Assembly: GCA_021324395.1 (NCBI GenBank)
Contig: JAJPJG010000018.1
Span: 1 to 64,000, forward strand
DNA from: Spartobacteria bacterium
GTDB lineage: Bacteria; Verrucomicrobiota; Verrucomicrobiia; Chthoniobacterales; Chthoniobacteraceae
Direction: 5' to 3'
DNA length: 64,000 bases
Within the stretch, counting starts at the first letter, position 1; each line of letters begins with the position of its first letter. Below the pieces are notes generated by a model. It searched no databases, had not been told where the DNA came from, and was given only the letters and a program-made list of their open reading frames with translations. The position numbers and the translations under genes were made by a program. Shown here piece by piece: positions 8,744 to 17,877 of the stretch.

Positions 8744-9184
8744 ATGCGAATCGCCGTCATTTCCGACACGCACGACCGGGTGCCGCCGCAACTCCCCGCA
8801 CTGATCGCCGAGGCCGATGAAATCTGGCATCTCGGCGACGTCTGTCACGAGTTTGTGCTCGACGAATTGCGCGCGATCGGACCGTCGATGAAAGTCGTGC
8901 GCGGCAATTGTGACTCTTGCATGGCATGGCCGCTGACACTTGTATTGGAACGCGCGAATTTCAAAATTCAGCTCGTCCACATTCCGCCTGCGCTAGCTCC
9001 ACCCGGCACCGATCTGCTCCTCCACGGTCACACCCATGTGCCGCGCGATGAGATGGTGGTTGCAACGCGATTTTTAAATCCCGGCTGCCTCACACGACCT
9101 AACCGCGGCGCGCCACGCAGCTTCGCCTGGTTGACGCTGGAGGAAGGAAAAAGGATTGCTTGGGAACTATGCGTTCTCCGCTAG
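8744..9184 (+). CDS. Calcineurin-like phosphoesterase, YfcE/MJ0936 family
   Basis: 146 residues. Binuclear metal phosphodiesterase: all metal-binding blocks are present, with ISDTHD (residues 6-11), HLGDVCHE, VRGNCDSC and LLHGHTHVPR in the expected order. Small members of this family hydrolyse phosphodiester substrates in vitro, but natural substrates are mostly unknown. The ATG at 8744 starts directly at the first beta strand (MRIAVISDTHD); an in-frame upstream start at 8675 would read through the inverted repeat. It is convergent with khpA, with one base between the stops. Confidence 0.9.
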   Translation: MRIAVISDTHDRVPPQLPALIAEADEIWHLGDVCHEFVLDELRAIGPSMKVVRGNCDSCMAWPLTLVLERANFKIQLVHIPPALAPPGTDLLLHGHTHVPRDEMVVATRFLNPGCLTRPNRGAPRSFAWLTLEEGKRIAWELCVLR

Positions 9185-9185
9185 T

Positions 9186-9452
9186 TCAGTGCGTTTGCGC
9201 GGATTTTTCCGCCGGCGCGCGATCCTCGATGATTTCCAGCGTCGCGCGCTGGTTGTGCCGCGATGCGGCAGCGTTAAGCAGATTGCGGATGGCCGCGATC
9301 GTGTGCCCGTGCTTGCCGATCACCTTCCCGACGTCGCTCTGGCGCAGGCGGAGATGAAAGATGATTTTCTTCGGGCCTTCATGCCGCGAGAGAACCATCT
9401 CATCGGGATACTCGATGAGTTGCTTGATGACGAACTCGAGGAATTCTTCCAC
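9186..9452 (-). CDS. khpA: KH-domain RNA-binding protein KhpA
   Basis: 88 residues consisting of a single KH domain with the GKHGHTI loop (consensus GxxG) inside DVGKVIGKHGHTIAAIRNLL. KhpA-type proteins bind RNA and are encoded beside rpsP in many bacteria, as here (50 bases after rpsP). The C-terminal tail EDRAPAEKSAQTH is a short charged extension. Cytoplasmic; the usual role is post-transcriptional control, sometimes with KhpB. Confidence 0.9.
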   Translation of the reverse strand: MEEFLEFVIKQLIEYPDEMVLSRHEGPKKIIFHLRLRQSDVGKVIGKHGHTIAAIRNLLNAAASRHNQRATLEIIEDRAPAEKSAQTH

Positions 9453-9502
9453 GGCGCGCGATGTTGGCGGGCAAACGCGATCACGTCAACCCGCCGCGAA
9501 AA

Positions 9503-9757
9503 TTAAGCAGCCGCGGCTGCTTTTTTTTGCTTTTTGATCAAGCTGCGAACGGTGTCGCTCGGCTGTGCGCCGCGCTCGATCCAATATTGCGCGCGATCGA
9601 GATCGACGCTCGCGTTCTCGCCTGTTTTTTTCGGGTCGTAAACGCCGATCTGCTCGATGAACTTGCCATCGCGCGGGCTGCGGCTGTCCGCGACCACCAC
9701 GCGGTAATACGGGTTGTTCAGCGAACCTTCGCGACGGAGTCTGATTGATACTGCCAT
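9503..9757 (-). CDS. rpsP: Small ribosomal subunit protein bS16
   Basis: 84 residues, normal for bS16. The N-terminus MAVSIRLRREGSLNNPYYRVVVADSRSP and IEQIGVYDP are diagnostic. The C-terminus is a lysine/alanine tail. It lies 12 bases after ffh and before khpA; this order matches the common ffh-rpsP-khpA part of the rimM-trmD operon, but rimM and trmD are not in the window. The leader before the ATG (CAAAGTTTAAC) has no Shine-Dalgarno. Confidence 0.97.
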   Translation of the reverse strand: MAVSIRLRREGSLNNPYYRVVVADSRSPRDGKFIEQIGVYDPKKTGENASVDLDRAQYWIERGAQPSDTVRSLIKKQKKAAAAA

Positions 9758-9769
9758 GTTAAACTTTGG

Positions 9770-11110
9770 TTAAAATTTGGGTATTCCTGGAAAACCGGCG
9801 CCGCGGGGTTGCGCCATCATCATTTTTCTTAATTTCCCCGCGTTCTTCATCAGCTTCCTCATTTGATTGAAGCGCGTCAGAAGATCATTCACTTCGGTCA
9901 CGGAAGTTCCGCTCCCGCGGGCGATTCGCTGGCGGCGCCGGGCGTTTAACACGTCCGGCTTCGCGCGCTCCTCGTTGGTCATCGAAAGCACGATGGCCTC
10001 GACCCGCTTGAGCTGTTTTTCGTCGACCGAAAAGCCCTTCAAGTTAGCCATCCCAGGCAACATGCCAAGTATATTTTCGAGCGGCCCGAGTTTGCGCATC
10101 ATTTTGAACTGCGCGAGAAAATCATTGAAATCGAAAGATGCGGTCCGCAGCTTCTTCTCCATCCGCGCGGCTTCCTCCTCGTCAATTGCCTCGGCGGCCT
10201 TTTCCACGAGCGAAACAACGTCGCCCATTCCGAGAATGCGGCCCGCGAGCCGATCGGGATAAAACGGCTCGAATTGATCGAGCTTTTCACCGACGCCGGC
10301 AAACTTGATCGGCCGTTGCGTGACTTCGCGCATCGAGAGCGCCGCACCGCCGCGTGCATCGCCGTCGAGCTTCGTTAAAACCAGACCGGTAATCTGCAGC
10401 GCGTCGTTAAAATGCGTCGCGACGCTTACCGCCTGCTGGCCGGTCGCGGCGTCCGCGACGAGCAAGACTTCCTGCGGCTGCAAAAATTCTTTCAACCGCT
10501 TGATCTCCTCGATCAACGCCTCGTCGATTTCCTGGCGGCCTGCGGTATCGAAGATCTGCACGTTCCCGTTCTGCGTTTCGGCCCATGCGATAGCTTGCTT
10601 CGCGCAGCGGATCACATCCGTCTCGCCCGGTTGCGGTGTGAAAACCGGCACGCCGACCTGCTTTGCGAGCGTCGCGAGTTGCTCAATCGCCGCCGGACGG
10701 TGCAAGTCACAAGCGATCAGCAACGGCGCGCGTCCCTGCTTTTTCAAAAGCCCCGCCAGCTTCGCCGACGACGTTGTTTTGCCCGCGCCGTTGAGGCCCA
10801 CCATCAAAATGCGCGCCGGTTTTTCCAAATTCACCGGAGCCTGATCGCCACCGAGCAGCGTCGTCAGCTCATCGTAAAAAATCTTCACGATCTGCTGCCC
10901 CGGCGTCACGCTCCGCAGCACATCTTCGCCGAGCGCCTTGTCCTTCACCCGCGCGATGAAATTCTTCGCGACGTTGTAATCGACATCCGCCTCCAGCAAC
11001 GCCATGCGCACCTCGCGCATTGCGTCGGTAACGTTCGTCTCGCTGATCGTCCCGTGACCGCGGAGATCCTTAAAAACGTCCTGAAGTTTGTCTGCGAGTT
11101 GTGAAAACAT
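9770..11110 (-). CDS. ffh: Signal recognition particle protein Ffh (SRP54)
   Basis: 446 residues. GTPase that binds signal sequences and 4.5S RNA to deliver nascent membrane proteins to FtsY. N domain at residues 1-85; G domain with GLNGAGKTTSSAKLAG at about residue 104, DTAGRQEIDEALI, and TKLDGDARGGAALS; methionine-rich M domain from about 300, with LGMLPGMANLKGF and the RNA-binding helix ARRRQRIARGSGTSVTEVN. It ends in a Met/Gly-rich tail. First gene of the ffh-rpsP-khpA operon; divergent from the DUF1573 gene. Confidence 0.97.
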   Translation of the reverse strand: MFSQLADKLQDVFKDLRGHGTISETNVTDAMREVRMALLEADVDYNVAKNFIARVKDKALGEDVLRSVTPGQQIVKIFYDELTTLLGGDQAPVNLEKPARILMVGLNGAGKTTSSAKLAGLLKKQGRAPLLIACDLHRPAAIEQLATLAKQVGVPVFTPQPGETDVIRCAKQAIAWAETQNGNVQIFDTAGRQEIDEALIEEIKRLKEFLQPQEVLLVADAATGQQAVSVATHFNDALQITGLVLTKLDGDARGGAALSMREVTQRPIKFAGVGEKLDQFEPFYPDRLAGRILGMGDVVSLVEKAAEAIDEEEAARMEKKLRTASFDFNDFLAQFKMMRKLGPLENILGMLPGMANLKGFSVDEKQLKRVEAIVLSMTNEERAKPDVLNARRRQRIARGSGTSVTEVNDLLTRFNQMRKLMKNAGKLRKMMMAQPRGAGFPGIPKF

Positions 11111-12682: not shown

Positions 12683-12710
12683 AATTTTCTCCGGAGGCAA
12701 AAAATTTTCG
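12683..12710 (+). terminator. Possible terminator hairpin after the DUF1573-rhodanese-MauE operon
   Basis: An AT-rich imperfect inverted repeat (CGAAATTTT ... AAAATTTTCG) with an inner CTCCGGAG palindrome lies just after the MauE stop. There is no uridine tract, so termination is only possible. It directly abuts the attC-like site at 12710. Confidence 0.3.
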
Positions 12711-12819
12711 CCTAACGAGAACAAGATCAGCTACCGGCGGCGCGATAGCTGCGTGGCAGGTTTGCTATGAGCAGCTACAGTAACGCGCGGAGCCTGTTAG
12801 CTACATCGCTTGGTTAGGC
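12710..12819 (-). other. attC-like recombination site 1 (110 bp)
   Basis: Bounded by GCCTAAC (12710-12716) and GTTAGGC (12813-12819). On the minus strand the R'' side is followed by GATGTAGCTAACAGGC, and the R' side is preceded by GCCGGTAGCTGATC. These two inner boxes pair as GAT/AGCTA/GGC with unpaired bases, as in the L boxes of attC. The last 16 bases on the minus strand (CTTGTTCTCGTTAGGC) are identical to those of site 2, which suggests a common integron lineage. Confidence 0.8.
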
Positions 12820-12845
12820 CTCATTCAGAAATCGGAATAAAGTGC

Positions 12846-14219
12846 TCACTTGGCATTGACCGCTATTGGTTTTATTCCATCGGCAGATTGATCCAGTGCC
12901 AGCGCGATGACTGTATCCACTTCGCTGACCTCACCCGGCTTCACCGAGATTTCGATGCCTTTGTTGGTTTGGCTAAAGCTCGCAACTTCTCCGCCCAGCA
13001 CCGAAGCACTCATAACCTTCGCGGGAATGGCGGGCAGGACAAGTTTGTCTCCCGGCCATTTGAGGACATGAATATAAATCGTCTTGTCGCGGTGCGTTGA
13101 TGCGCCGTAGTCGGCGGGCAGGAACGGCCCGCCACGAGTCGAGTAGATACTCGCGCCGTATTTGCCGAGCCACTCGCCGATTTCACGCAATCGCTGAACT
13201 TGTGGCGGATCAATCTGTCCATCGGGGCGCGGACCGACATTGAGCAATAAATTTCCATCCCGCCCCGCCACTTTGGCGAGCAATTGGATGCAGTCCTTGA
13301 GCGGCTTCGGTGATCTGTTTGGCTGGTAGCCCCACGCGCCAGCGAGCGTGGTGCAAAGTTCCCACGGATGTTCATTGTCAAAATTCCCCAGCGCCCCATC
13401 GCCTTCGCGCGAATGAAAATCCTCCGGCATATCGGCGCGACCATTGATGATGATCTGCGGCTGAAGTCGGCGAATCGCCGCGTAAACCTCGTCGTGCTGC
13501 CAACTGAAACCGCCTTTGTAGTGTTCTCCCTTTGGGCGTTTTTTCCAACCCGCCCCGGCGACCCAATCGCCGCCGAAGTTCAGCCAGTCCGTCTCGCCGC
13601 CGTCGAACCACAGCACATCAATCTGGCCGTAGTTGGACAAGAGCTCCTCCACCTGACGATGGTATTGCTCCCGCATCGCCTCGGCACTCTGACGCTGCAA
13701 GTCGGGAAAGAAAAATCCGGGGAAACGCCAGTCCAGTGGAGAATAATACAGCCCTACATGGAGTCCGGCTTTTCGGACGGCTGTGACATACTCTGCCACA
13801 AAGTCACGGTGGGCGGCGGTCTTCATGCTGGTGAAATCACTCGCCTTGCTGTCGAATAGGCTGAAGCCATCGTGGTGGCGGCTCGTCAGCACCATATACT
13901 TCATCCCCGCAGCCTTCGCCGTCGCCGCCCAGGAATCGGGATCAAAGTTCGGCTTAAACTGATCGGCCAGCTTCGCATATTCCTCGACGGGAATTTGCTC
14001 ATTCCATTGCACCCACTCGCCGCGCCCGGGAATGGCGTAAAGGCCGAAATGAATAAACATTCCGAAGCGAGCTTCGCGCCACCACTCCATGCGTGCCTCG
14101 TGCTGCTCTGCGGTTTCGGCGAAAGGCAGGGCTGAGGCGCGGACGGATGTGTGCGCGGCCACCATCATCAGAAAGACCAGCAAAATTGTTCGGACATTCG
14201 TAACAGGCAATTTTTTCAT
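12846..14219 (-). CDS. Secreted alpha-L-fucosidase, GH29, carried as a cassette
   Basis: 457 residues with a signal peptide (residues ~1-28, ...HTSVRA). GH29 enzymes remove terminal alpha-L-fucose with retention. Conserved parts are WWREARFGMFIHFGLYAIPG, MKYMVLTSRHHDGFSLFDSK (substrate-binding His pair), HVGLYYSPLDWRFP and IDVLWFDGGETDW, with the nucleophile Asp near residue 203; RPDGQIDPPQVQRL marks the end of the catalytic domain. A C-terminal beta domain follows. The gene begins 18 bases after site 2 and ends 27 bases before site 1 in its reading direction, so it is a ~1.5 kb cassette, larger than most. It is probably extracellular or periplasmic. Confidence 0.92.
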   Translation of the reverse strand: MKKLPVTNVRTILLVFLMMVAAHTSVRASALPFAETAEQHEARMEWWREARFGMFIHFGLYAIPGRGEWVQWNEQIPVEEYAKLADQFKPNFDPDSWAATAKAAGMKYMVLTSRHHDGFSLFDSKASDFTSMKTAAHRDFVAEYVTAVRKAGLHVGLYYSPLDWRFPGFFFPDLQRQSAEAMREQYHRQVEELLSNYGQIDVLWFDGGETDWLNFGGDWVAGAGWKKRPKGEHYKGGFSWQHDEVYAAIRRLQPQIIINGRADMPEDFHSREGDGALGNFDNEHPWELCTTLAGAWGYQPNRSPKPLKDCIQLLAKVAGRDGNLLLNVGPRPDGQIDPPQVQRLREIGEWLGKYGASIYSTRGGPFLPADYGASTHRDKTIYIHVLKWPGDKLVLPAIPAKVMSASVLGGEVASFSQTNKGIEISVKPGEVSEVDTVIALALDQSADGIKPIAVNAK

Positions 14220-14236
14220 AGAAACGCGGCGTAGGG

Positions 14237-14296
14237 GCCTAACGAGAACAAGAACAGCGACAGCCGGCGGCTGTTCGCTGCATCGATGGGTTAGGC
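14237..14296 (-). other. attC-like recombination site 2 (60 bp)
   Basis: Boxes GCCTAAC (14237-14243) and GTTAGGC (14290-14296). On the minus strand CAGCGAACAGCCG pairs with CGGCTGTCGCTG, leaving one extrahelical A; this is the classic attC fold, and 60 bp is the common attC size. The right box contains the stop codon of the membrane-protein cassette (14291-14293). Confidence 0.88.
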
Positions 14297-14590
14297 GTTT
14301 CCGGTTGCAATGGATGGGCGCTCATGCCGTGGCTCGGCTTCTGCACTGGTGCTGCGAAACGCGGCAAAGAGCGCGCCGTAAATGACTCCTATGACTGCCC
14401 ATAGCCAGAAAATCGAAGTGGCTAACTCTCGCTTGGCCCACGTCTCGAGGGCTGGCGGATAAAACATCGGCGCAAAGTATGTGACATTCGTGTGATTGGT
14501 GCTGCCGGTCAAATCCCACGGCGCGAATAGTGCCGAAAGCGCGATGGCTGCGACGGCGAGATAAGTGAGTGTCTTTTGTTTGGTGTTCAT
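14291..14590 (-). CDS. Small cassette-encoded membrane protein of unknown function
   Basis: 99 residues. Starts MNTKQKTLTYLAVAAIALS; two predicted membrane helices at ~8-25 and ~58-80 (SIFWLWAVIGVIYGALFAAF) surround a periplasmic loop with NYT-like NHTNVTYFAPMFYPP. The family resemblance (short two-helix proteins beginning MxTKQKTLT) is to proteins I recall from integron cassettes, with no known function. The TAA stop lies inside the GCCTAAC box of site 2. A longer in-frame start at 14791 would cross the upstream recombination site and is unlikely. No clear Shine-Dalgarno. Confidence 0.8.
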   Translation of the reverse strand: MNTKQKTLTYLAVAAIALSALFAPWDLTGSTNHTNVTYFAPMFYPPALETWAKRELATSIFWLWAVIGVIYGALFAAFRSTSAEAEPRHERPSIATGNA

Positions 14591-14684
14591 AGCTGCTGGT
14601 TTTGTTTTCTGGTTTTGGGTCGAGTTATTGGTTGCTTTCTTCACTTTCGTTACCCGGTGAGCGCGAGGAATGAAAAAAGCTAAG

Positions 14685-14719
14685 CCACCGCTGACTCGCG
14701 ACGTGAGCCGCGACAGCGG
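14685..14719 (-). repeat. Imperfect hairpin next to attC-like site 3
   Basis: CCACCGCTGACTCGCG and CGCGACAGCGG form an imperfect palindrome with a bulge. It directly adjoins the compact site 3 and lies in the leader of the two-helix protein gene. It may be part of a longer attC structure or a leader hairpin for the cassette gene; the sequence alone does not decide. Confidence 0.4.
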
Positions 14720-14763
14720 AACTAACAGCGCCAACGGCGGTTGGCTCCGGCGACTTGTTAGGT
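14720..14763 (-). other. attC-like recombination site 3 (compact, divergent)
   Basis: On the plus strand it runs from ACTAAC to GTTAGGT (14757-14763). Inside, CCAACGGCGGTTGG forms a hairpin, and GCGCC faces GGCGAC with an extra base, giving an asymmetric stem. At 44 bp it is shorter than the usual ~57 bp minimum, and the box at the gene B side (GTTAGTT on the minus strand) departs from GTTRRRY at one base. The stop of the preceding cassette gene ends exactly here. It could be degenerate or inactive. Confidence 0.55.
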
Positions 14764-15278
14764 TACTGGTCAATGTCAAATGGACACTCACGATGCTTAA
14801 TCATCTCAAAATGGTGACGTCGGCACAAGACACTGAACCGAACCGCGCCTCGACTGCAACCGTCGTGCTTGCATGGCCGCGTCAAATCCTCTGCTCCTAG
14901 CTTGTCATAAAACTCTGCATCAAGTCGCCGCATAATCTCATCCGGCGGCGGCGGGTCTGGTGCGCCAATCTTCGGAAGGAAAGCGTCGAAACGAACGTAG
15001 TAAATGAACGACTCAAACCGAATGTCATCATCGGGACGACCAGCCAATCTGTCAGCCCACTGGACACAATCAGTAATCGTGGGTCTATCCAGTGCCTCGC
15101 GCAAACCTTTGTGAGCTAAACCATCTGGCAAAATCGGATCATCCTGCCCGTCCTCATACTCTGGATTGACAAGGAACGCCTCGGTGTCCAGCGTCCATTG
15201 CTTAACGTCGCCGGGAAGATATAACCATGCGTCCGGCTGCTTCGCTGTCGCTTGGCGCAAAATGTCGCGTAGCGTCAC
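14763..15278 (-). CDS. Cassette protein with DUF7716-like domain and C-terminal Cys/His motif
   Basis: 171 residues from a GTG at 15278, 13 bases after site 4 in its reading direction. The N-terminal part (LYLPGDVKQWTLDTEAFLVN) and IYYVRFDAFLPKIG resemble the DUF7716 type seen in cassettes and immunity-like genes; this is recognised from memory. The C-terminal segment has C-x4-C-x9-C-x2-HH (PCKHDGCSRG then SVLCRRHHFEMI), a likely zinc knuckle. No signal or membrane segment. Function unknown. TAA lies just before the CCTAAC box of site 3. Confidence 0.8.
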   Translation of the reverse strand: MTLRDILRQATAKQPDAWLYLPGDVKQWTLDTEAFLVNPEYEDGQDDPILPDGLAHKGLREALDRPTITDCVQWADRLAGRPDDDIRFESFIYYVRFDAFLPKIGAPDPPPPDEIMRRLDAEFYDKLGAEDLTRPCKHDGCSRGAVRFSVLCRRHHFEMIKHRECPFDIDQ

Positions 15279-15291
15279 GGTGTGCGAAGTG

Positions 15292-15320
15292 GCCTAACTG
15301 TCGACTCTCGACAGTTAGGC
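15292..15320 (-). other. attC-like site 4: 29-bp perfect palindrome
   Basis: GCCTAACTGTCGA, CTC, TCGACAGTTAGGC: 13-bp perfect arms bounded by exact attC boxes (15292-15298 and 15314-15320). There is no L-box asymmetry or extrahelical base, so if it was an attC it is collapsed to a stem. It could also act as a terminator-like hairpin, although no uridine tract follows. The TAA stop of the frameshifted cassette gene is at 15315-15317 within the right box. Confidence 0.6.
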
Positions 15321-15667
15321 GTTGCGGTCGATCCAGAGTTCATAGTCGTTTCCCGATTTGTCAGCGCTCCGTTTCGGGAGTTCGGAGTCTGGAATTAGTG
15401 CCCATCCGCGGTCATTGAAGTCTTCGCTCTGGTCGCGAAAGTAGCGATATAAAAAATTGCCCGCGCGCAGTGCTGTGGCTCTGAAAAGAAGTGGGGCTTG
15501 GTTCGGTAGATGTCGTTGAGATCGAAGTTCAGATAGTCTCGCACCGACCGTTCTATGATGTCTCGGTGAAGCTGCTCGTCTCGGTATCGGACGTATCCGG
15601 TGACAGACCCGGCGAAAGGCAGCCGAGCATCTATTCGACTGGCTCCCCATAGTTTGACGCAAGGCAT
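15315..15667 (-). pseudogene. Frameshifted cassette gene of unknown function
   Basis: Two overlapping frames read as one protein. From the ATG at 15667, about 70 residues run MPCVKLWGASRIDARLPF ... YRTKPHFFSEPQHC. The continuation (NFLYRYFRDQSEDFNDRGW ... DYELWIDRNA, stop at 15315) is in another frame. The switch lies near 15455-15475, where minus-strand GCGCGCGGGC and a T6 tract are plausible slippage sites. The joined product would be ~117 residues. The stop inside the GCCTAAC box shows it was a normal cassette gene. Either a genuine loss-of-function or a sequencing error. Confidence 0.6.
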
Positions 15668-15740
15668 TGGAGTAAAAGAGGCTCTCGTTACTCGGGATGG
15701 CTAGCGACGCGTGACAAGAAGCATGCGAAGTTTCGCCCAA

Positions 15741-16004
15741 GCGGGTTGCTGCTTGTAAGAACTAGCGTGGTGAAAAGAACCCACGGCTTGAAAGCGTGCT
15801 GGAGAGAAGCGAAACTCACAAGCCGAAACTGCTCGACCAGTGCGACGCGTCCTGCGGCTCAAACATTACAGCCGCCGCACCGAAGCGAGTTATTGGGACC
15901 GACGGTAGATATTGAACCAACAAGGGTGACGATCCGAGTGATCCTGAGCAAGTCTCGCGGACGTGTATTGGGAGGCGGCACCGTTGTTCATCCTTGATGG
16001 TGCC
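15741..16004. other. Stretch without a recognisable gene
   Basis: Nothing convincing is coded between the frameshifted cassette and the 21-bp repeat. Short open frames exist on both strands but show no family features. No integron integrase or attI-like sequence is visible, although this is where it would be expected upstream of the first cassette. Confidence 0.5.
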
Positions 16005-16235
16005 GGGCATTTCCTTCCTCGGGCTGTGCATTTCTCTACAGTGGCTTGCCATTTCTTCGTTTCGGGTGGGCATTTCTCTACAGTTGCCGGGTATTTCGGC
16101 GTTTGGGTTGGGTATTTCTTTACACCGGTTTGCCATTTCGCCATTTGGGATGGGCATTTCTCTACACTTGCCAGCTGTTTCCCCGGCAAGGCCGGGTATT
16201 TCTCCACCAAGACCGGGCATTTCGGTAGATGAGCC
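16005..16235. repeat. 11 x 21-bp tandem repeat with 42-bp higher-order period
   Basis: Eleven consecutive 21-bp units from GGGCATTTCCTTCCTCGGGCT to GGGCATTTCGGTAGATGAGCC, without gaps. All share a central ATTTC or close variant. Odd and even units form two types: even units resemble GGGCATTTCTCTACAGTTGCC, odd units carry GTTTGGG-like ends, so the true period is 42 bp. Because 21 is divisible by three, several frames on both strands stay open. On the minus strand they give heptads beginning Glu-Met or Glu-Ile; on the plus strand, heptads with His-Phe. No start or neighbour supports a real protein. Confidence 0.85.
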
Positions 16236-16308: not shown

Positions 16309-16437
16309 AAGGACAACTGCTACGACAACGCCATGATGGAGTCCTTCCGGGCTCCCCTCAAAACCGAATGCTTCGGCTCATTCATCCCAATGACAAAACA
16401 ACAAGCCAAACTCATGTTGCCGGGGGCTTCCCGCTGA
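16309..16437 (+). pseudogene. IS3-family transposase (OrfB) C-terminal fragment
   Basis: A 42-codon frame reads KDNCYDNAMMESFRAPLKTE followed by CFGSFIPMTKQQAKLML, then a stop. This matches the region around the catalytic glutamate of IS3-family DDE transposases (DNxxxEnxMxESF..LKTE). The rest of the transposase, the terminal repeats and target duplications are not visible, so it is a decayed remnant at the right side of the accessory island. Confidence 0.75.
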
Positions 16438-16518: not shown

Positions 16519-17877
16519 TTACGGTTTCGGCGGGGCGCCGGCTTTGGCCGGGTCGAAATTGAATGTCCAGCGGGTCTCGACGCGTTTACCGCCGGCGGTG
16601 GCGTTCAGGATGACGGTGTAGTTTTTGTCGCGCAACGGCTGGGTGAATGTGTAGCTGACCGTCTTGGTTTTCGCGTCGTATTGCGCCGGAACCGGTCCGA
16701 AGCCGCTGACGCGCATCTGGACGCTGCCGGCCTCGACTTCGCCCATGGTGGCGAGGTTGGCTTTGATCGTCGGTTTGGGGTTGCTGATCGTCTCGCCTTC
16801 CATCGGCTGCGTGATCATCGAGGCGGCGGCGAGCTGCGCAACGGCGGGCGCCGGCGCGGGCGGGCCGGAGACGCCGCCGCCGATCATCTTCATCGCGTCG
16901 GTGTAAAAGATTTGCGGCTTGCCGGCATCGATGGCGTAGCGTCCGAGGAGGTCGTAGGGTGGCGTGCTGAAGCGGAGTTGCTGGCCGTAAACGGTGAACG
17001 CGGCTTCGTAGCCGGCCTGTTTCACCATGTCGCGCGCGCGCTGGTTCCAGACGCCGAACGGATACGCGAAGGCGTTGCACTTGATGCCGAGCTGTTTCTC
17101 CAGCACCTGCTTCGACTCGACCACTTCCTTGTGCAACCAGCCATCGACGCCGAGCGTCGCGACGTCGTTTTTCACCATGGCGGCGTGGGTTTTGTCCATG
17201 CCGACGCCGGGGACTTTCAAGCTGGAGTGCGAGTAGGTGTGGCACTGGATGTCGACGCCGGCGTCGCGCATTTCGCCGAGCTGGTCCCACGACATCGATT
17301 TGCCGCCGGTGTTGACGTAGTTGATGTAAATGAAAAGCGTGAATGGATAGCCGTATTTTTTCAAAATCGGCCACGCGTTTTCGTAAGCGGAGACCCAGCC
17401 GTCGTCGATGGTGATGATGCAGCTTTTCACCGGGATGTCTTTTTCGCCGCGGCGAAATGCGAGGAAATCCTGCATCGGAATCACGGTGAAACCGTTGTCC
17501 TTGATCGTCTGCATCTCCTTCTCGAACTCGGCGACGGAGATGGTCAGCGCCTTCATTTTGCTGTTGTCCTCGATGTTGTGATAGCAGAGGCAAATCGCAG
17601 CGGCGTTTTTGTTGACTGCGGGCGCTGCGGTCGGCATGGGCGTGGCCGCGGCTTTCGGTGCGCTGGCCGGATTCGGCGCGCCATTTGCGGCGGCGACTGC
17701 GGCGTTTTCCGGCTGTGTCGGCGGCGCGGCGGATTGCGTCGCGACCGAACCGTGTTTCGGCTTTTTAAACTTCGCGACGAGCTCGTTGATTTTTTTGCAG
17801 CCGGTAAACGACAGCGCGACGACGGTGCAGATCAGGACCAGGCTTTTGGTCGTTCCCTCAAAACGTGTGTGACTCAT
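16519..17877 (-). CDS. Polysaccharide deacetylase lipoprotein (NodB domain)
   Basis: 452 residues. A lipobox LSFTGC at residues ~22-27 indicates an outer- or inner-membrane lipoprotein. An Ala/Pro-rich linker (~50-90) precedes the NodB domain: ICLCYHNIEDNS, the catalytic/metal pair in CIITIDDGWVSAYENAW (about residue 157), and the zinc-binding H-x3-H in CHTYSHSSLK (about residue 212). The C-terminal ~110 residues after a Pro/Ala linker form an Ig-like beta domain. It would deacetylate N-acetylated glycans in the envelope. Encoded 48 bases after purB on the same strand. Confidence 0.9.
   Translation of the reverse strand: MSHTRFEGTTKSLVLICTVVALSFTGCKKINELVAKFKKPKHGSVATQSAAPPTQPENAAVAAANGAPNPASAPKAAATPMPTAAPAVNKNAAAICLCYHNIEDNSKMKALTISVAEFEKEMQTIKDNGFTVIPMQDFLAFRRGEKDIPVKSCIITIDDGWVSAYENAWPILKKYGYPFTLFIYINYVNTGGKSMSWDQLGEMRDAGVDIQCHTYSHSSLKVPGVGMDKTHAAMVKNDVATLGVDGWLHKEVVESKQVLEKQLGIKCNAFAYPFGVWNQRARDMVKQAGYEAAFTVYGQQLRFSTPPYDLLGRYAIDAGKPQIFYTDAMKMIGGGVSGPPAPAPAVAQLAAASMITQPMEGETISNPKPTIKANLATMGEVEAGSVQMRVSGFGPVPAQYDAKTKTVSYTFTQPLRDKNYTVILNATAGGKRVETRWTFNFDPAKAGAPPKP

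Follow-up and report, generated by a model that had tools for sequence, protein, structure and literature searches.

The cassette cluster described here, which lies between ffh and a polysaccharide deacetylase gene in a genome of the order Chthoniobacterales, is very probably (about 0.85) a CALIN and a satellite of the integron resident on another contig of that genome, whose attC families it shares and whose integrase would act on it in trans. A CALIN is defined by at least two attC sites less than 4 kb apart with no intI nearby (IntegronFinder; PMC8618304, PMC9024848). Sites 1 and 2 of the cluster, called as attC by a model built here, are 1.4 kb apart, and no match to a recombinase was found on their contig. 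The CALIN itself is a known kind of element, an ordinary satellite of an integron. The first-pass annotation was thus right in reading integron-type cassettes and a CALIN on a Verrucomicrobiota chromosome, and the sites match the families of the resident array.

The source genome is a 3.68-Mb draft of 58 contigs, 91.5% complete. A relative from the same family, G029, corresponds to the public MAG contig JANXWQ010000366.1, labeled Chthoniobacter sp., with shared sequence at each of five places compared; the window is assigned to Chthoniobacterales, Verrucomicrobiota, on this basis. The window, the whole stretch of 64,000 nucleotides that was analyzed, is on contig C24; its relevant features are as follows.

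9770-11110, minus strand: flanking ffh, a conserved neighbor of the deacetylase gene in relatives (synteny)
12710-12819, minus strand: attC site 1, 110 bp, with a long terminal structure and intact R'' and R', downstream of the fucosidase gene
12846-14219, minus strand: cassette gene D, alpha-L-fucosidase (GH29), 457 aa (Pfam PF01120, 281.6 bits)
14237-14296, minus strand: attC site 2, 60 bp, with intact R'' and R' and the stop codon of gene C within R'' (82.0 bits, model R1)
14291-14590, minus strand: cassette gene C, about 99 aa, probably a membrane protein (open reading frame; start uncertain, the frame reaching 14791)
about 14669-14765, minus strand: attC site 3, R'' intact and R' degraded (90% identical over 94 bases to C27:19797-19890)
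14763-15278, minus strand: cassette gene B, DUF7716 protein, 171 aa (PF24832, 68.1 bits)
15292-15320, no strand assigned: hairpin whose end boxes are attC-like, at the terminus of gene A, here called site 4 (perfect 13 bp, 3-base loop)
15315-15667, minus strand: gene A, probably one frameshifted gene (frame 15395-15667, then a frame ending at 15315)
16519-17877, minus strand: flanking polysaccharide deacetylase gene on the opposite side of the insertion (PF01522 and synteny)

The intact attC sites

The window has just three copies of the motif GCCTAAC (12710, 14237, and 15292) and three of GTTAGGC (12813, 14290, and 15314), at exactly the positions first claimed; three such box pairs appeared in none of 200 first-order Markov simulations of the window (mean 0.0). 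In both site 1 and site 2 these boxes conform to the R''/R' consensus, RYYYAAC and GTTRRRY, and the two sites share their final 16 bases (GCCTAACGAGAACAAG), as had been noted. Read in gene direction, the plan of a site is R'', a spacer, L'' with two extra bases six apart, a terminal hairpin, L', a second spacer, and R'. Both sites have the L''/L' pair with extrahelical bases on the L'' arm, which bears out for site 2 the earlier description of a fold with an extrahelical base. Site 2 has a T-T mismatch at one lower L pair, a part left unpaired by the energy model; the fold of this site (z -3.5) nevertheless beats all but one of 200 shuffles, while the fold energy of site 1 is not outstanding against shuffled sequences.

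Site 1 is 81% identical to C27:20222-20338, with boxes and L stem as in the other sites of that contig, and site 2 is 88% identical to C27:17199-17258. The covariance search advised by the first-pass annotation was carried out with an attC model built from this genome's own sites, which finds its own kind. It recovered site 2 strongly (82.0 bits, E 1.3e-21, with site 2 itself among the training sequences), site 1 only partially (31.1 bits) because of its long terminal structure, and site 4 through its end boxes alone (15.8 bits, E 0.05). In the attC alignment, paired positions covary, with compensating substitutions in the L stem, and the asymmetry is that expected of attC; manual trimming of the terminal structures in five long sites favors the terminal stem but leaves the L-stem pairs unaffected.

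Site 3 and the hairpin at site 4

Each of four genes had been said to end at an attC-like site. Two of these sites are intact, one is degraded and had been misplaced, and one is a mere hairpin, so the list of four attC sites was rejected as it stood. The third, drawn as a pair at 14720/14757, is a real attC, but its true span is about 14669-14765; the arm at 14720 is internal to the site, and the drawn pair had joined R'' to an internal repeat. Site 3 is 86-90% identical to members of the C27 array, and its R' position reads ATTCCTC against GTTAGCC in the C27 relative, failing the GTTRRRY crossover box. Across 57 genomes searched, the sole other match to its sequence was a partial one of 28 bases. 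When read through in one frame, attC sites, including window 14669-14765 and C27:19793-19891, yield recurring pseudo-peptides (SPEPTAVGA.SSA.A.HV..RRWLSFF and MQRTAAG..), which could pass for conserved protein tails in annotations.

Site 4 folds very stably (z -8.5) and is non-random, yet by structure it is not an attC: neither the fold nor the model match includes L boxes, extrahelical bases, or an unpaired spacer. Its pattern occurs once in the genome, and the only two hairpins like it in 57 genomes are short and different, with a reversed control pattern being commoner, so that there is no sign of a family. The hairpin stands at a gene end like a site, and we would guess that it may be a collapsed attC.

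Cassette genes

The named genes are open, gene A excepted. As first drawn (15315-15740), gene A has a better N-terminal reading in another frame, 15395-15667, and this three-frame reading suggests that it is probably one gene broken by a frameshift; no relatives were found in the loci fetched, so the frameshift is inferred only. Together, gene A and site 4 fit the cassette plan poorly. The genes that end at 15315 and 14291 do have their stop codons inside a box, and the genes reported to start 13-18 bases past the previous site do so at 13 and 17 bases. Gene C has no clear family, and the DUF7716 gene B has matches in 2 of 197 genomes of the order, the source genome included. Defense functions were considered and rejected for genes A-C and for five cassettes of C27, none of which has a PADLOC match.

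The resident integron and dispersed sites

The first-pass annotation described an array without integrase and proposed a genome search for intI. Its description holds locally for C24; genome-wide it does not, for a whole-genome search with the NCBI integron-integrase family found intI at C27:21658-22596 (485 bits against a cut-off of 265). The nearest solved structure to this integrase is that of the Vibrio cholerae integron integrase (2a3v), and the catalytic residues and integron-specific region are kept in the alignment. Nine attC sites of the same families as those of the window lie at 16.6-21.0 kb of C27, on the start side of intI and pointing away from it, and attI would be expected within the stretch of about 120 bases that separates intI from the first cassette gene. 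The arrangement resembles that of sedentary chromosomal integrons in that intI diverges from an array of similar attC sites, but the array is small and at least as many related sites are scattered in the genome. About 1 kb from intI is a repeat reading frame (KVGRHFAKV..; locus L017, 8598-9107) similar to one in the window.

The covariance model detected at least 12 further sites of the attC family on six contigs other than C27 and C24. C11 has five, grouped in two clusters separated by about 23 kb; C53 has three; and C35, C52, C49, and C15 have one apiece. This count is a lower bound, with only part of the candidates scored genome-wide, and it places more sites of the family outside the main array than inside it. 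Apart from the one on C52, a 16-kb contig, the dispersed sites are well inside long contigs. A pattern search found near-identical attC sites on C27 and C11; those on C49 and C15 are without R boxes, and other dispersed sites are degraded. Related sites score, at lower values, in 20 of 56 other genomes searched.

Two other recombinases of the genome were observed. A second tyrosine recombinase at C28:18871-19779 (locus L018, about 8872-9780) scores 261 bits, just under the cut-off of 265, with no attC-like pairs found in the first 30 kb of the contig; a relative, G005, has a similar near-cut-off protein. The single attC-like site on C35 (locus L126, 6187-7665 and 7529-7588) has a poor R'' box; it overlaps an open frame of 493 residues at that frame's upstream end, and the frame contains a different tyrosine recombinase.

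Integrons have been reported previously in Verrucomicrobiota (PMC8618304), and a literature search found, within the library covered, no paper naming both "integron" and "Chthoniobacter". Of 338 Verrucomicrobiota genomes sampled, 96 encode an integron integrase with E no higher than 1e-90, and several of them carry between three and five copies.

Insertion and origin of the cluster

Relatives in the family and order have the gene order rpsP, ffh, polysaccharide deacetylase gene, purB, and where both genes are seen the gap between ffh and the deacetylase gene is about 30 to 330 bases, against 5.4 kb in the window. The first-pass annotation had named ordinary adjacency of the four genes in relatives, without the palindromes, as grounds against a cassette array; in the synteny comparison ffh adjoins the deacetylase gene, and none of genes A-D (0 of 4) is present between them. 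The 5.4-kb insert holds a plus-strand DUF1573-rhodanese-MauE set, the cassettes, a repeat region, and a transposase fragment, and its junctions show no clean secondary-site signature. The repeat region, adjoining the cassette cluster, comprises imperfect 42-base tandem repeats at 15816-16232 that read as a GEMPxxxxEMA-like repeat protein; between it and the deacetylase gene, at about 16310-16420, is an IS3-type transposase-like fragment (DNCYDNAMMESFRAPLKTECF), judged by eye only. An Rfam scan of the window returned nothing at gathering thresholds.

Published routes to a CALIN are off-target insertion, loss of intI, and rearrangement (PMC8618304). The second of these would apply if the cluster were the relic of an older, separate integron at this locus that had lost its own intI and had acquired C27-like attC sites by cassette exchange or shared ancestry. 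The decayed appearance of site 3 and gene A accords with such a history, but C24 has no integrase remnant and, in relatives, the ffh-deacetylase interval holds no integron; we consider such a history improbable. A misjoin of a C27 array fragment into C24 during assembly or binning is far less probable still. The genome is a draft, attC sites are repetitive, and drafts are known to inflate CALIN counts (PMC9024848); against this, the genes of both flanks (rpsP-ffh and deacetylase-purB) are neighbors in relatives, which is what a correctly joined contig would show on either side of the insert, and the C27 array stops inside its contig rather than at an edge. It is scarcely credible that the sites are no more than common hairpins (terminators, say, or dispersed palindromic repeats) that follow ordinary genes, and this was rejected as the whole explanation. 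Site 4 by itself would suit such a reading, being a simple hairpin; sites 1-3, in contrast, are matched by sites next to a genuine intI, and their asymmetry is conserved and their pairs covary.

A satellite of the C27 integron is the reading we prefer, and the cluster would have arrived either by off-target insertion of cassettes or because the main array was rearranged. That so many sites of one family are scattered favors dispersal from the resident integron; the junctions are no proof of it. Like other CALINs, the cluster has closely spaced attC sites, no intI nearby, and cassette genes in one direction. It differs from them in that one of its three attC sites lacks the R' box, a hairpin with attC-like ends stands in place of a fourth, and a cognate intI is present on another contig of the genome.

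By this mechanism, the C27 integrase would act in trans on the bottom-strand hairpins of sites 1 and 2. Cleavage at G/TTAGGC would release the intervening fucosidase gene as a circle of about 1527 bp, which could re-insert at attI or at another attC. Genes B and C, which border site 3, would be stranded because its crossover box is gone, and they are predicted to be stuck as single cassettes.

The extrahelical base

Two extrahelical bases, T and G on the bottom strand, have been described as conserved in attC sites, the G being non-essential for IntI1 (PMC2727003). On the bottom (recombining) strand of sites 1 and 2 the first extrahelical base is C and so departs from this G. A structural finder, which gave zero matches in shuffled sequence, shows C at this position in all eight sites of the source genome with six-base spacing. 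Order-wide the base is C in 22 of 27 sites and G in 5, although some of these loci were fetched with the home-built model and may favor the pattern, and sites from the same genome do not count as independent; the loci from other phyla have G in 12 of 13 sites and C in one. The finder detected zero sites in loci from other classes of Verrucomicrobiota, on which the census is therefore uninformative. Compared with the T-N6-G sites of Proteobacteria and the T-N6-C variants studied with IntI1 (PMC3053210, PMC2727003), the sites here likewise have two extrahelical bases six apart on the same arm and keep the T, but C replaces G as the prevailing natural state in the order, not as an engineered or rare variant.

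It is doubtful, if conceivable, that in Chthoniobacterales one integrase serves cassettes dispersed genome-wide through a lineage-specific recognition code in which the extrahelical base is fixed as C rather than G. A change in the integrase matching the altered base was sought and rejected, the contact residues (K, R, K, Y, and W) being identical to those reported for IntI1. Since C is well tolerated by IntI1 in laboratory work (PMC3053210, PMC2727003), drift is no less likely than a new code.

Implications

The cluster and the C27 array document a chromosomal integron with satellite cassettes in a mostly uncultured order of Verrucomicrobiota, a phylum in which strong integron integrases are common among sampled genomes. 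The excess of sites outside the array makes this genome a natural case for asking how CALINs originate, and the shift in the extrahelical base makes it simple to test how strict integrases are in their reading of attC hairpins.
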